From: an uncultured Atopobiaceae bacterium
GTDB taxonomy: Bacteria > Actinomycetota > Coriobacteriia > Coriobacteriales > Atopobiaceae
Length of the DNA: 64,000 nt
Direction: 5' to 3'
Assembly: GCA_944321515.1 (NCBI GenBank)
Contig: CALULO010000001.1
Coordinates: 248,001 to 312,000, forward strand
Positions 4,878 through 59,886 of this stretch are shown in pieces. How positions within the stretch are numbered: the first letter of the stretch is position 1; each line of letters opens with the position of its first letter. Below the pieces are notes generated by a model that saw only the letters and a list, made by a program, of their open reading frames with translations, searched no databases and was not told the DNA's origin. A program made the translations under genes and the position numbers.

Positions 4878-5670
4878 GGCTGGGAGCTTCCTCGGCGGCG
4901 GGGTCCTTGGGGTCCTCGCCCGAGTCAGGACCAGCGTCCGAGTCAGAGCCTGGGTCCTGCCCCTCCCCGTCCGCGGCGCCCGGCTCCGGGGACGCGTCGG
5001 GCGCGGGGCCCGGTGCGGGCTCCGGGGCTGGCTCCGGGCGCGGCGGTGCCGGAGGCCTGGGGCCTTCCGGCGCCGGCGGCGCGGGAGGCTGGGCCGTGGG
5101 CGCAGGACCTGGCGCCGGAGGTTCTTCTCGCCGCCCCTCGGGCCGCTCGATGCGGCAGGCAAACACCAGGTAGAAGAAGCAGGCCACGGGCGCGGTACGC
5201 GCGGCCAGGATCACGAGCAGGCTCAGCAGGTCGAACGCATAGACCCCACGGCCCAGGGACATCAGCATGACGATCAGCCACAGTCCCATCCCCACCACCG
5301 TCGGCAGCAGCGGCAGCGTCACGAAGCGCCCGTCCTCCCGTCGAGAGACGACCCTGGCCTCCATCCCACGGCGCACAAAGCGCGCGCATGCGCCGCGCAC
5401 GCGCGAGAACCACCCGGCCACGGCCCGCGCGGACGTGGCAGACGAGCGTGCGTAGGCGTTCTGGGCGGCGCGCATCTCGCTCGAGACGCCTCCGGGGGCG
5501 GGCGCACCCGTTGAGGCGTAGGTCGATCTCGTCTGCGAGCGGCCCTGCCGCTCCAGCCACACCAGGGCGTCGAGGAGGTCGTCCGCGTTTGCGTCGAGCG
5601 CCTCCTTGGCGTCCGCATAGCCCACGCCGGCCTTCTCGCGCACCAGCTCCACCAGCTCGATCCTCTCCAT
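4870..5670 (-). CDS. DUF4342-type protein with UBA-like domain and two membrane helices
   Basis: 266-residue protein that leads the two-component operon. Residues 1-45 (MERIELVELVREKAGVGYAD...) form a UBA-like helical module of the kind also found in EF-Ts and DUF4342 proteins. Two membrane segments follow, LPTVVGMGLWLIVMLMSLG (about 122-140) and a longer one ending in CFFYLVFAC. The last 85 residues are Pro/Glu/Asp-rich and probably disordered. Family knowledge gives no biochemical function. Its place in front of, and overlapping, the regulator suggests it is an accessory or signalling partner of the kinase; that is inference. AAGGAGG precedes the ATG. Confidence 0.75.
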   Translation of the reverse strand: MERIELVELVREKAGVGYADAKEALDANADDLLDALVWLERQGRSQTRSTYASTGAPAPGGVSSEMRAAQNAYARSSATSARAVAGWFSRVRGACARFVRRGMEARVVSRREDGRFVTLPLLPTVVGMGLWLIVMLMSLGRGVYAFDLLSLLVILAARTAPVACFFYLVFACRIERPEGRREEPPAPGPAPTAQPPAPPAPEGPRPPAPPRPEPAPEPAPGPAPDASPEPGAADGEGQDPGSDSDAGPDSGEDPKDPAAEEAPSHD

Positions 5671-29003: not shown

Positions 29004-29019
29004 TGTTTCACGTGAAACG
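29004..29019. promoter_or_regulatory. parS site 1
   Basis: TGTTTCACGTGAAACG matches the bacterial parS consensus TGTTTCACGTGAAACA in 15 of 16 positions. It lies 55 bases upstream of parA. Confidence 0.93.
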
Positions 29020-29129: not shown

Positions 29130-29163
29130 TAGCCGAGGTGTTTCACGTGAAACACCTCGGCTA
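29130..29163. promoter_or_regulatory. parS site 2 inside a 34-bp palindrome
   Basis: TGTTTCACGTGAAACA (29139-29154) is a perfect parS. Here the symmetry extends on both sides (TAGCCGAGG...CCTCGGCTA) to a 34-bp perfect palindrome. It lies between the rsmG stop and parA. The extended arms could fold as a transcript hairpin, but no T-tract follows. Confidence 0.95.
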
Positions 29164-29205: not shown

Positions 29206-29937
29206 CTAAACACCAAGCGGACTCTTTTTTGCAGTCCCGACCTTTCGAGGAAGACGGATCCTAGACTTAGCGACCTTTCTAAACACAAGTACCTCTCGAT
29301 GACCCAATCCCCTAGGAAGCTCAAAGGTTTCACGTGAAACAAGACTTAGACCACAAATTTCTCCAGCTCTGACCCCAGCCTCAATCTCACTTTGCTCTGG
29401 ATGACCCTTCTGAACTATAAGTAAACCGTTTCGGGAAAGGAGGGGAGCAGCATACTCAACAAGAGTATTAGTCTGAGCGACAGCACGAGCCAATACTATT
29501 GTCTGGCTTCCACCGTGAGTTAACGCATAGTCCTCAACTCTCGTATGAATGGCAGACAACCTTCTCAAGCCAATTTCTGTAATAAACGAATTCACTGCGT
29601 CTACTTTTTTTCCAACAGAGTCGATAAGAACTCCGTGGGCACCCGTCATGACTCCAAATGGAATACCGGGGAATCCACCGCCAGTTCCCATATCGAGGAA
29701 ACGATCGCCTTCGGATACTGACACAGCCTCACAAGAAAGGGGAAGTAGTGAATCGACAAGATGGAGCGTCACAGCCTCATTGAGGTCAGTAATCCTCGTG
29801 AGGTTTACAACCTTGTTCTTCTCAATAAGCAGCTCGAGATGACGAACCATCAGACTTGCCTGTGACAGCTCACAGGTGATTCCAAAGTCATCAAGCTCGC
29901 TAACGAGCTGTTGAATGAGGCTGTCAGTCATATTCAT
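29206..29937 (-). CDS. rsmG: 16S rRNA m7G527 methyltransferase
   Basis: SAM-dependent methyltransferase for G527 of 16S rRNA; loss gives low-level streptomycin resistance in other bacteria. The 243-residue protein carries NLTRITDLNEAVTLHLVDSL, the SAM motif DMGTGGGFPGIPFGV (about 81-95) and ARAVAQTNTLVEYAAPLL. Length is normal, with a basic C-terminal tail. It stands between parA and the jag-rpmH group, the classical origin order rpmH-rnpA-yidD-yidC-jag-rsmG-parA-parB. A parS site is embedded in its coding sequence. Confidence 0.95.
   Translation of the reverse strand: MNMTDSLIQQLVSELDDFGITCELSQASLMVRHLELLIEKNKVVNLTRITDLNEAVTLHLVDSLLPLSCEAVSVSEGDRFLDMGTGGGFPGIPFGVMTGAHGVLIDSVGKKVDAVNSFITEIGLRRLSAIHTRVEDYALTHGGSQTIVLARAVAQTNTLVEYAAPLLSRNGLLIVQKGHPEQSEIEAGVRAGEICGLSLVSRETFELPRGLGHREVLVFRKVAKSRIRLPRKVGTAKKSPLGV
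29326..29341. promoter_or_regulatory. parS site 3 within rsmG
   Basis: GGTTTCACGTGAAACA, 15 of 16 matches to parS, inside the coding region of rsmG, where it encodes part of VSRETFEL. Confidence 0.9.
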
Positions 29938-54358: not shown

Positions 54359-54443
54359 CGGGGACCCCCGCGCGCCGGCGGCCTCTGGGAAACTCCCCAG
54401 CCCCCTGGTCTGGCTGCGAGGTTCTTCTCGCCGCTCCATGGCC

Positions 54444-56847: not shown

Positions 56848-58134
56848 ATGAGCGACGCGAAGGTTGACATTCTGCTTCTGGGCTCCGGTGGCCGCGAGCA
56901 CGCGCTTCTCGCCAAGCTGGCGGAGTCGCCGCGCGCGGGCAAGCTCTACGTGGCTCCCGGCAACGGCGGCATGAACTCCGCCGCAGAGCCGGTGGAGCTG
57001 GACATCGATTCCCCCGTTGCGGTGGCCGACTGGGCACGCGAGCACGGCGTGGGCCTCGTGGTCATCGGTCCGGAGGCGCCGCTGGTGGCCGGCGTGGCCG
57101 ACGCGGTGCGCTCCGCGGGGATCCCGTGCTTCGGCCCCAATGGCGACGCGGCGCAGATGGAGGGCTCCAAGAAGTTCGCAAAGCAGGTCATGAGCCGCGC
57201 CGGCGTGCCCACCGCCGCCTACCGCACCTTCACCGACGAGGCTAGCTGCGCCGAGTACGTCGAGCGGACCGGCGCGCCGATCGTCATTAAGGCTGATGGC
57301 CTGGCTGCGGGCAAGGGCGTCATCGTCGCCAAGACCACCGAGGAGGCCCTGGAGGGCGTGCACGAGTGCTTCTCCGGCGTGTTTGGCGACGCCGGTGCCA
57401 CCGTGGTCGTCGAGGAGACTCTTGAGGGGCCGGAGTGCTCGCTGCTGGCACTCACCGACGGCAAGACCGTGGTTCCCTTGGCCACCGCACAGGACCACAA
57501 GCGCGCGCTGGACGGGGACAAGGGCCCCAACACGGGTGGCATGGGCGTGTACTCGCCGGTTCCGGAGCACCTCGTCTCCGCAGATGAGCTTGCCGCGATG
57601 GTGGACATCGAGCAGCGCGTGGTCGCCGAGCTTGCCTCCGAGGGCATCACCTACTCCGGCTGCCTCTACGGCGGCTTCATGCTTACCAAGGAGGGCCCGA
57701 AGGTCCTGGAGTTCAACGCGCGCTTCGGCGACCCGGAGACCCAGGTGGTGCTGCCCCGCATGAAGGCGGACCTGATGGACGTGTTCCTGGCCTGCGACAA
57801 CGGCACGCTCAGCGAGGACATGGTCTCCTGGGACAACGACTGGGCGGTCTCCGTGGTGCTGACCTCGGCCGGCTACCCGGGCTCCTACGAGAAGGGCAAG
57901 GTCATCACCGGCATCGACCGCGCCGAGGAGCTCCCCGGCGTGACGGTCTACCACGCTGGCACCGCCCTGCGCGACGGCGAGCTGGTCACCAACGGCGGCC
58001 GCGTGCTCGACGTGACGGCTGTGGCCCCGACCTTCGAGGAGGCTCGCGCCCAGGCCTATCGTGCCTGCGAGCTCATCGACTTCGACGGCAAGACCTACCG
58101 CTCCGACATCGGCATGCGTGCGATCAAGGAGTAG
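56848..58134 (+). CDS. purD: Phosphoribosylamine--glycine ligase
   Basis: 428-residue ATP-grasp ligase for the second step of purine synthesis. It starts MSDAKVDILLLGSGGREHALL. The nucleotide-binding VIKADGLAAGKGV, the DHKRALDGDKGPNTGGMG block and EFNARFGDPETQ are intact. AAGGAGG lies nine bases before the ATG. It may share a transcript with purA and the DegV-like gene; its own terminator follows. Confidence 0.96.
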   Translation: MSDAKVDILLLGSGGREHALLAKLAESPRAGKLYVAPGNGGMNSAAEPVELDIDSPVAVADWAREHGVGLVVIGPEAPLVAGVADAVRSAGIPCFGPNGDAAQMEGSKKFAKQVMSRAGVPTAAYRTFTDEASCAEYVERTGAPIVIKADGLAAGKGVIVAKTTEEALEGVHECFSGVFGDAGATVVVEETLEGPECSLLALTDGKTVVPLATAQDHKRALDGDKGPNTGGMGVYSPVPEHLVSADELAAMVDIEQRVVAELASEGITYSGCLYGGFMLTKEGPKVLEFNARFGDPETQVVLPRMKADLMDVFLACDNGTLSEDMVSWDNDWAVSVVLTSAGYPGSYEKGKVITGIDRAEELPGVTVYHAGTALRDGELVTNGGRVLDVTAVAPTFEEARAQAYRACELIDFDGKTYRSDIGMRAIKE

Positions 58135-58158
58135 ACGAGCGGGACAGAGGGCTGTGAC

Positions 58159-58198
58159 GCGCGGTCGGCTGCGGTTTGCCGGCCGCGCGTTCTTCTTG
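58159..58198 (+). terminator. Terminator of purD
   Basis: GCGCGGTCGGC (58159-58169) pairs with GCCGGCCGCGC (58178-58188), one G-T pair, followed by GTTCTTCTTG. It lies 24 bases after the purD stop. Confidence 0.75.
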
Positions 58199-58203
58199 CC
58201 GCT

Positions 58204-58699
58204 GCTTACGATATTGCGGATGACGTGCCGCCCCTCTTGTCGGGGCTTACGAAATCTCGGATGAAGTGCCGTCACTCTGCTACCGCTGCTTACGAAAGCG
58301 GGGGTGCTGCGCCGCCCTTCTCGCCGTTGCTTACGAAATTGCGGCTGGTGCCTCGTTGCTCCCCGCAGCTGCTTACGAAAATGCGGCTGGTGCTCCACTG
58401 CCCGCTGCTGTTGCTTACAAAATCGTGGTCGACGAGGTGCCCTGATTACAATCTGCCGGGGAATGTCGTACTCCGCGTGTGAACCAGGCGAGAAGAACGG
58501 GCGGCTTGCGAACCAGCCTCACTTCTCTAAGCGCACCCCGGGTTATCTGGCGCAACGCCCTCGATTTCCTAAGCGCATTTCCGGGCCGGTCATCCTCAAC
58601 TGAGGTTTTGTAAGCGCCGTCATCCCATACGACCACCTCGACTGGCCTTTCGTAAGCATCTCCCCAACCCGATCCCTCATCAGCCGCGATTCACTAAGC
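58204..58699. repeat. Array of 42-bp-period repeats in two opposed blocks
   Basis: The core GCTTACGAAAT-GCGG-TG occurs six times on the plus strand with starts at 58204, 58245, 58288, 58329, 58371 and 58413 (spacing 41, 43, 41, 42, 42). A degenerate seventh (TGATTACAATCTGC) lies near 58443. Then the same core appears five times in reverse orientation (TAAGC ends at 58532, 58574, 58615, 58657, 58699; spacing 42, 41, 42, 42). About 25 bases per unit are conserved and 15 variable. Frames exist through it but shift between units, so it is not a clear gene. It is not CRISPR-like: repeats are imperfect and no cas gene is present. Confidence 0.9.
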
Positions 58700-59145
58700 G
58701 TCCCGAGGATTTGTTCCGCCACGCCGCCACGCCGTGTCGCCCCGCCGCCGTGGGCTCAACGCCACGCCCCCCCGCGCCGGCACGCCATACCGCCACCGCG
58801 CGCCGCCCCGTCCGCGTGCCGGCGCGCCGCAGCCGCCCGCATACGCCCCCGCTTTCGTCCGTCCCCGTCGCTCTCCTAAGCAACCTCTTGGCGGGGTCGT
58901 GCGGTATCCTAGGGAAGACTGGCGGGGAGGTCGAGATGGCGACGACGCCAACCGAGTGGCCCTACGTGCGGATATGCAGCACGCTCGCGCAGGTGCCTGT
59001 GCAAGTGGCCGCGAGAGCTCCCGTACGAACGGCCACGCGATGACGTGGCCGGTCCGCGCGGTTCCGCCTCGTCCGGACCCCAAGGGGCCGGGCGCGTGCG
59101 CGACGCCGCGTGACATAATCTCGACCATGCGACCAAGGAGACCCA
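58700..59145. other. C-rich intergenic region between the repeat array and the NUDIX gene
   Basis: 446 bases. The first half is Cys/Gly-poor, C-rich simple sequence (CGCCGCCACGCCG-like). One short frame with a good ribosome site, GGGGAGG then ATG at 58936 (35 codons, MATTPTEWPYVRIC...), is possible but unsupported by family or structure. CATAAT at about 59114-59119 may be the -10 of the NUDIX gene. No terminator or RNA gene seen. Confidence 0.4.
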
Positions 59146-59886
59146 ATGACCAGCAATAACGCCGACAAGAACACTCAGATTGACCCAGACAGCCACGCCG
59201 CAGCGGTGGACGACATGCGCGAGTCCGTGGCCGCCTTCACCTATGACGGAGACCGAAGCCGCCTGGACCACTTCTCCGGCGCCCCCGTGGAGCGCGACCT
59301 TGTGCTCGGCGAGGACGACCCTCGCGACGCCGCCCTGGCCGAGCACCCGCTTACCGAGGACGTGGCCTGGACCGGCCGCATCTTCAACGTCGACCGGCTT
59401 CGCGTGGAGCTGCCTGACGGCCGCGCCGCCATCCGCGACGTGGTGCGCCACCCGGGCGCGGTGGCGGTGGTGGCCCTCACCGACGACGGGCGGATCTGCC
59501 TGGTGCGCCAGTACCGCACCGCCCTTGGTCGCGTGACCGTGGAGGTCCCGGCCGGCAAGCTCGCACCGGGCGAGGACCCGCTTGAGTGCGCCAGCCGCGA
59601 GCTCCTCGAGGAGACCGGCATGAGCGCGGAGAAGATCGCCTTCCTCACCACCATCGCCAGCTCGGCCGGTTTCTGTGACGAGCTCATCCACATCTACATG
59701 GCCACCGGCCTCACCTTCTCGCGCTCAGACCCGGATGCCGACGAGTTCATCAACGTGGACCTGGTGCCGCTCGGCGAGCTTGTGGACGCGGTGCTGGACG
59801 GTCGCATCGAGGATGCGAAGACCGTGGTGGGCGCGCTCATCTGCGACGCCGTGATGAGCCGTCTCACCCCCGAGCCCCAGGAGTAG
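59146..59886 (+). CDS. NUDIX hydrolase, ADP-ribose pyrophosphatase type
   Basis: 246 residues from ATG 59146, after AAGGAG. The Nudix box GKLAPGEDPLECASRELLEE is complete (about residues 138-157, continuing TG). The approach VVRHPGAVAVVALTDDGRICLVRQYR is typical for ADP-ribose pyrophosphatases (NudF-like), which cleave ADP-ribose to AMP and ribose-5-phosphate. An N-terminal extension of about 75 acidic residues precedes the usual start of the family. No operon partner is obvious. Confidence 0.88.
   Translation: MTSNNADKNTQIDPDSHAAAVDDMRESVAAFTYDGDRSRLDHFSGAPVERDLVLGEDDPRDAALAEHPLTEDVAWTGRIFNVDRLRVELPDGRAAIRDVVRHPGAVAVVALTDDGRICLVRQYRTALGRVTVEVPAGKLAPGEDPLECASRELLEETGMSAEKIAFLTTIASSAGFCDELIHIYMATGLTFSRSDPDADEFINVDLVPLGELVDAVLDGRIEDAKTVVGALICDAVMSRLTPEPQE

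Follow-up and report, generated by a model that had tools for sequence, protein, structure and literature searches.

The array of repeats located between purD and a NUDIX hydrolase gene in the window (the whole stretch of 64,000 nucleotides that was analyzed) very probably belongs, as a solitary array, to a nuclease-associated array element. As judged from sequence comparisons, we are similarly confident of a joint association of dispersed arrays, an array-flanked gene, a gene family with private motifs, and gene-less as well as inverted states at one locus. That the window array represents, more specifically, a solitary and dispersed copy of an 'array-nuclease' element with the cut-and-spread behavior proposed below appears, on balance, probable.

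The window array consists of 11 units of an asymmetric 25-bp motif at positions 58203-58700, six in forward followed by five in backward orientation. Scored with a matrix derived from gene-flanking arrays only (see below), the forward units F1 to F6 are found on the + strand at 58203-58227 (19.3 bits), 58244-58268 (19.5 bits), 58287-58311 (18.9 bits), 58328-58352 (25.5 bits), 58370-58394 (22.9 bits) and 58412-58436 (23.7 bits), and the backward units R1 to R5 on the - strand at 58509-58533 (19.2 bits), 58551-58575 (27.0 bits), 58592-58616 (17.5 bits), 58634-58658 (18.0 bits) and 58676-58700 (19.4 bits). The first G of GCTTA lies at 58204, 58245, 58288, 58329, 58371 and 58413 (+) and at 58532, 58574, 58615, 58657 and 58699 (-), which corresponds to unit-to-unit distances of 41, 43, 41, 42 and 42 in the forward block and of 42, 41, 42 and 42 in the backward block, with 119 from first G to first G across the central gap (58437-58508) that separates the opposed blocks. 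The neighboring genes, purD upstream (56848-58134, + strand) and the NUDIX hydrolase gene downstream (59146-59886, + strand), are context and lie outside the element. When 294 units of related arrays were compared, the unit consensus was YGCTTACRRAATCGCGGCYGWTGCR, and each 25-bp motif is followed by a near-random linker of about 17 bp that carries almost no information. TRF detected just a part of the array (58322-58423, period 42). An earlier note on this DNA had described 11 units at intervals of 41-43 bp, six of them forward and five backward, and all of these were located; its span of 58204-58699 was corrected to 58203-58700, and the shared core it had recognized proved to be real, but the conserved core is, at 25 bp, longer than noted. 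A degenerate twelfth unit was not recovered, there being no clean twelfth unit in phase. The same note had argued against a repeat protein, which holds since the spacings of 41 and 43 bp break the reading frame; a coding repeat is thus ruled out. A CRISPR array was likewise ruled out: the window units are degenerate and present in two opposed orientations, and are not near-identical direct repeats.

The window motif accompanies a gene of the same genome outside the window. At C1:185300-186388, a single gene encoding a 363-aa protein carries complete arrays of the window motif on both sides (C1:185017-185294 and C1:186686-187083), which together comprise 17 units. A matrix constructed from those 17 flanking units alone, 120 kb away, recovered exactly the 11 window units with scores of 17.5-27 bits, and it is therefore concluded that the window array belongs with the gene at C1:185300-186388. 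As control for the matrix scan, the 348-kb contig was shuffled ten times, which yielded 14-22 hits with scores of ≥11 bits. Moreover, the exact 10-mer GCTTACGAAA is present in 26 copies in the 1.96-Mb genome as compared to 0 for its reversed control. The latter counts and the matrix scores in comparison to the contig shuffles argue that the window array did not arise by chance.

A search for the motif at 42-bp spacing in this and related genomes, as suggested in the earlier note, revealed many loci. About 14 arrays of the window motif were found in the Olsenella-like (Atopobiaceae) genome of the window (G000) and about 19 in that of its sister species (G029), nearly always with the forward block followed by the backward block, and the unit scores in G029 were as good as those in G000 (26.5 vs 24.2 bits). 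Among the 31 genomes of the genus sample, three consecutive in-phase GCTTAC units occurred 20 times in G000, 27 times in G029, twice in G010 and not at all in the other 28 genomes, and shorter arrays with the window motif were present in few other genomes, e.g., G025, G020, and G021. The spacing between neighboring units was 41 or 42 bp in 197 of 205 measured cases, and the facing distance across the centre was 67 bp in 18 of 38 arrays as compared to 119 in the window array. Based on approximate gene calls, the arrays are intergenic and mostly situated at gene 3' ends, with flanking genes that are mostly convergent or co-directional and divergent for one array only. Many arrays occupy orthologous places in G000 and G029; conservation between orthologous arrays was weakly higher for the motif than for the linker (0.74 vs 0.69), a value that stems from one pair and is confounded by the presence of GGCGAGAAGAACC in linkers. 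Neither a target-site duplication nor a fresh array copy was found among the arrays compared. Recent, IS-like copying of whole arrays between loci was ruled out, as the linkers differ from array to array, and for the same reason the spread of the arrays is either old or did not proceed by simple copying. The notion of a structural element of the purD-NUDIX gap was too local: the array is present at many loci, and the same gap holds unrelated arrays elsewhere. In G002, this gap (L134:806-1293) contains two opposed arrays of the unrelated motif GGTTACGTACAC with a period of 19; in G003 (L111:34-1400), an ATPase-like gene is located between two CGTGAATTCACG element pairs, and other genes may therefore ride between such elements.

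The gene at C1:185300-186388 has rubrerythrin and glgB as neighbors. At this locus, the order array-gene-array in G000 is opposed by one 12-unit array and no gene in G029, and the G029 assembly, which is 93% complete, yielded no orthologue of this gene. The nuclease gene at the rubrerythrin-glgB locus is inverted in G001, G011, and G027 relative to G000, G018, and G021. Furthermore, protein identity of the nuclease amounts to 54-59% as compared to mostly 79-95% for the locus neighbors. Loss, inversion and fast change at this locus would be expected from recombination between the flanking inverted arrays in combination with a race for specificity. Since G029 keeps about 19 good arrays without an orthologue of the gene, something else may maintain the arrays.

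The 363-aa protein was modelled by AF2 with a pLDDT of 90.5. Its C-terminal half was closest to the catalytic domain of the EDxHD homing endonuclease I-Bth0305I (3r3p; VIA-align Z 9.9, rmsd 2.5 Å, 94/97 residues), followed by 3hrl (Z 8.5) and then by other PD-(D/E)XK enzymes including TnsA; Foldseek alone returned weak E-values (0.03-1.3) for the nuclease model. The Pfam family MTES_1575, which has been described as a Vsr-fold REase (PMC3710099), matches 20 of 50 family members. In these 50 members, H251 and D260 are invariant (50/50 each), E184 is conserved in 49 and D228 in 40, and E/D245 is kept in 49-50; in a clade of 317-aa proteins, Y is present at 228 and a D nearby instead. When the N-terminal domain was modelled alone, VIA-align matched it to AbiEi (6y8q) with a Z of 7.7, just below the safe level of the tool, with the next row at 3.7, and Foldseek alone found nothing for this domain. 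Residues 1-175 match the AbiEi region 67-194, beyond the AbiEi wHTH. The model and structure comparisons identified no DNA-binding domain in the protein, and analyses by PADLOC and NCBIfam yielded nothing convincing. From these models, we infer that the protein is likely composed of an AbiEi-CTD-like domain, an EDxHD/Vsr-type nuclease domain and basic C-terminal helices.

Across the order, 97 of 120 genomes contain members of this gene family, with 5-18 per genome within the genus. A 9-mer occurring at least five times across the two 800-bp flanks, and on both sides, was detected at 37 of 70 family loci as compared to 6 of 2071 shuffles and none of the 29 NUDIX loci used as control; three of the 37 owe this to the common word GGCGAGAAG. 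A stricter four-way inverted-repeat test, which demands the same inverted pair at the same spacing on both flanks, was passed by 36 of 68 genus loci and 8 of 38 loci in other genera, but by none of 1630 shuffles and none of the 29 controls, and these counts are lower bounds because exact 8-mers were required. About half of the paralogues failed the exact-repeat flank tests. The typical paralogue layout is ++-- / gene / ++--, with facing distances equal on both flanks (mirror geometry). Moreover, motif and period follow the tree of 68 proteins: the 317-aa clade is associated with GTACGTAC-like motifs and a period of mostly 19-22 bp, one clade with GATT...GTGTGC-like motifs and a period of 31 bp, another with GGACCCAAATCC-like motifs; the gene at C1:185300-186388 falls into a clade with GCTTA-type motifs and a period of 41-42 bp. 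This concordance between motif and protein can in part be attributed to common ancestry of a gene and its flank, which does not, however, account for the dispersed copies. Dispersed copies and private motifs also occur for other members, as GTTACGTACAC is present in 74 exact copies in G002 (0-9 in other genomes), where the gene of locus L243 is located between two GTTACGTACAC arrays, and phased CGCACTCGGCG was found only in G014, beside its own gene and at one distant locus.

The modal periods of about 24 motif families, listed by hand, are 19-22, 29-31, 40-42, and 53 bp. For helical periods of 10.2-10.6 bp, the phase concentration R of these values was 0.87-0.90 (overall range 0.84-0.90), and it was 0.85 (p = 5e-5 against uniform periods) when the 41-42 clade was collapsed to one value; the best helical period is not sharply defined, 10.5-11 being similar. 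This clustering at whole helical turns suggests a putative protein-binding, helically phased array, as the earlier note had supposed, and is in favor of recognition from one side of the B-DNA helix rather than of a role as RNA.

The centre of the arrays is marked by a further element, namely GGCGAGAAGAACC, a 13-mer that is abundant genus-wide and central in many arrays. In the central gap of the window array, GGCGAGAAGAACG (58487-58499, + strand) differs from it by one mismatch. As an exact 12-mer, GGCGAGAAGAACC has 11-506 copies in each of the 31 genus genomes as compared to 0-3 for the reversed control. At ≤1 mismatch it was found in 17 of 38 array centres vs 11 of 207 side linkers, and it is also present near the array centres of several other motif families. 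At ≤2 mismatches, it occurs 43 times in the window where about 3 are expected, e.g., at 1249-1261, 5120-5132, 54420-54432, and 58487-58499. Its central place may mark the site of cutting or of entry, or it may represent a common core of older origin; it may also be a DNA-uptake-sequence-like word or the core of a common element.

Four other explanations were considered. A transcribed long imperfect RNA hairpin, acting as terminator or regulatory RNA, would be in line with the complementarity of the opposed blocks and with the position of many arrays at gene 3' ends. However, the pairing that had been envisaged for the window array left no trace, since the similarity of facing linkers did not exceed that of non-facing linkers (0.307 vs 0.308, p = 0.55) and the same was true for the motifs (0.634 vs 0.627, p = 0.24); arm-to-arm covariation was thus absent, the Rfam covariance models gave no match up to E = 1 in 57900-59300, and the periods follow the B-DNA turn. 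We consider the hairpin highly improbable. The same holds for classical REP/REPIN sequences spread by a resident RAYT (Y1 transposase), despite the dispersed inverted repeats, which are typical of REPINs, and the presence of a Y1_Tnp gene in G000 as well as in 28 of the 31 genomes of the genus. G000 possesses just one Y1_Tnp (PF01797, RAYT) gene, which is bordered by a different REP-like repeat of its own, GGGACGAAGGGGACGGAGG (L203:1040-1100 and 2025-2330), and not by GCTTACGAAA, and the array element is for this reason not a member of the REPIN/RAYT systems. The likeness to these is nevertheless extensive, comprising a single gene that is inherited vertically and has a private motif, inverted and dispersed over intergenic sites, as well as many solo copies and the joint change of motif and protein. 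The protein, in contrast, is an EDxHD/Vsr-type nuclease instead of a Y1 HUH transposase (TnpA-REP), the units are asymmetric, 25 bp long and phased, with several per arm, and the linkers are not conserved between copies. A REP palindrome is not formed, as the 25-bp consensus is asymmetric and inversion exists between blocks only. Spread by RAYT is thereby largely refuted for the window motif.

Two further explanations are unlikely, but far less so. The arrays might be operators of an autoregulated AbiEi-like repressor that binds around its own gene, in which case the dispersed arrays would serve other genes as operators or be left over from copies of the gene that were lost. The AbiEi-like N-terminal domain and the solo arrays where the gene is gone would fit such a repressor. 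AbiEi-type proteins bind sites of about 23 bp in inverted pairs, and both AbiEi and Rv2827c act as repressors of their own operons and bind inverted repeats of 23 bp (PMC7319586), which by analogy might be a close precedent for the opposed 25-bp units. In comparison to AbiEi-type antitoxins, no winged-helix domain is seen in the matched region, a nuclease domain is present, and many-unit arrays are dispersed over many loci here. Against operators speak the conservation of the nuclease residues, the full array on both flanks of the gene, and the location of the arrays between convergent or co-directional genes with only one between divergent genes (approximate gene calls). Of comparably low probability are chromosome-organizing or recombination-platform sites with a host function such as loop anchoring or cassette exchange, for which the nuclease gene would be one cargo among several. 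The retention of arrays without the gene in G029, the orthologous placement of many arrays in G000 and G029 and the ATPase-like gene between CGTGAATTCACG elements in the purD-NUDIX gap of G003 are in accordance with this explanation, but each motif is restricted to one species or a small group and varies along with the sequence of the nuclease, which is unexpected for a conserved host function.

For the array-nuclease element, we propose that the protein would occupy adjacent 25-bp units along the same face of the DNA, and that the two opposed blocks would orient its nuclease domains towards the centre of the array. A cut or nick introduced there, followed by repair or recombination between arrays, would result in duplication, movement, inversion or loss of the gene, leaving solo arrays behind; the element would thus work like REPIN/RAYT with an unrelated nuclease. 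We rate this mechanism of cooperative binding, centre cleavage, and spread, inversion or loss via repair and recombination between arrays at slightly below an even chance. A little more tentatively still, an EDxHD nuclease fused to an AbiEi-like domain may recognize and spread its own private, phased and opposed arrays, and would then constitute an undescribed kind of element, i.e., a nuclease-based counterpart of REPIN/RAYT with solo-LTR-like dynamics. In that reading, each lineage would possess its own set of solo arrays because specificity turns over between species. The statement in the earlier note that no named element of this kind is known still stands, with no Rfam match and none described in the openly searchable literature, in which (subscription papers aside) no earlier description of motif arrays paired with a homing-nuclease-like gene was found.

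The element resembles other known systems in part. Like I-Bth0305I, the protein displays the EDxHD catalytic domain fold and the E-D-x-H-D residues, and the recognition of a long DNA target by I-Bth0305I might be comparable to the predicted recognition of arrays. Unlike in homing endonucleases, no intron or intein is involved and an AbiEi-like N-terminal domain is attached; moreover, the gene lies between two complete opposed arrays and does not interrupt its target. Tn7/Tn402-type ends contain several direct transposase sites per end, inverted between the ends, similar to the array blocks, and TnsA of Tn7, a PD-(D/E)XK nuclease, is a structural match to the nuclease domain. In contrast to these transposons, no DDE transposase was seen next to the gene, no fixed cargo boundary was found, and each gene flank alone is a complete opposed array.

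If the array-nuclease reading is true, a nuclease family that spans an order of Actinomycetota would be linked to a DNA motif of its own throughout the genome, and many intergenic repeats left unannotated in these genomes, a large class, would be accounted for. Dozens of natural protein-motif pairs with diverged specificity would be available, making recognition rules and the evolution of specificity directly testable. REPIN/RAYT-style systems would then have arisen more than once, from unrelated nucleases.

Some additional repeats were observed. A further array family of G000 (L155:5998-6290) is formed by AGTCACGCTTTC with alternating 20/42-bp spacing and was found on no sampled paralogue. 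In another genus, CAGGAAGAACG forms opposed arrays at L174 (G032:C2:457000-547000), with 117 copies as compared to 7 for the control, nearly all copies listed being located within about 90 kb of one contig. Finally, the window contains three GTTTCACGTGAAAC palindromes (29005-29018, 29140-29153, and 29327-29340), which we take to match the ParB parS consensus.
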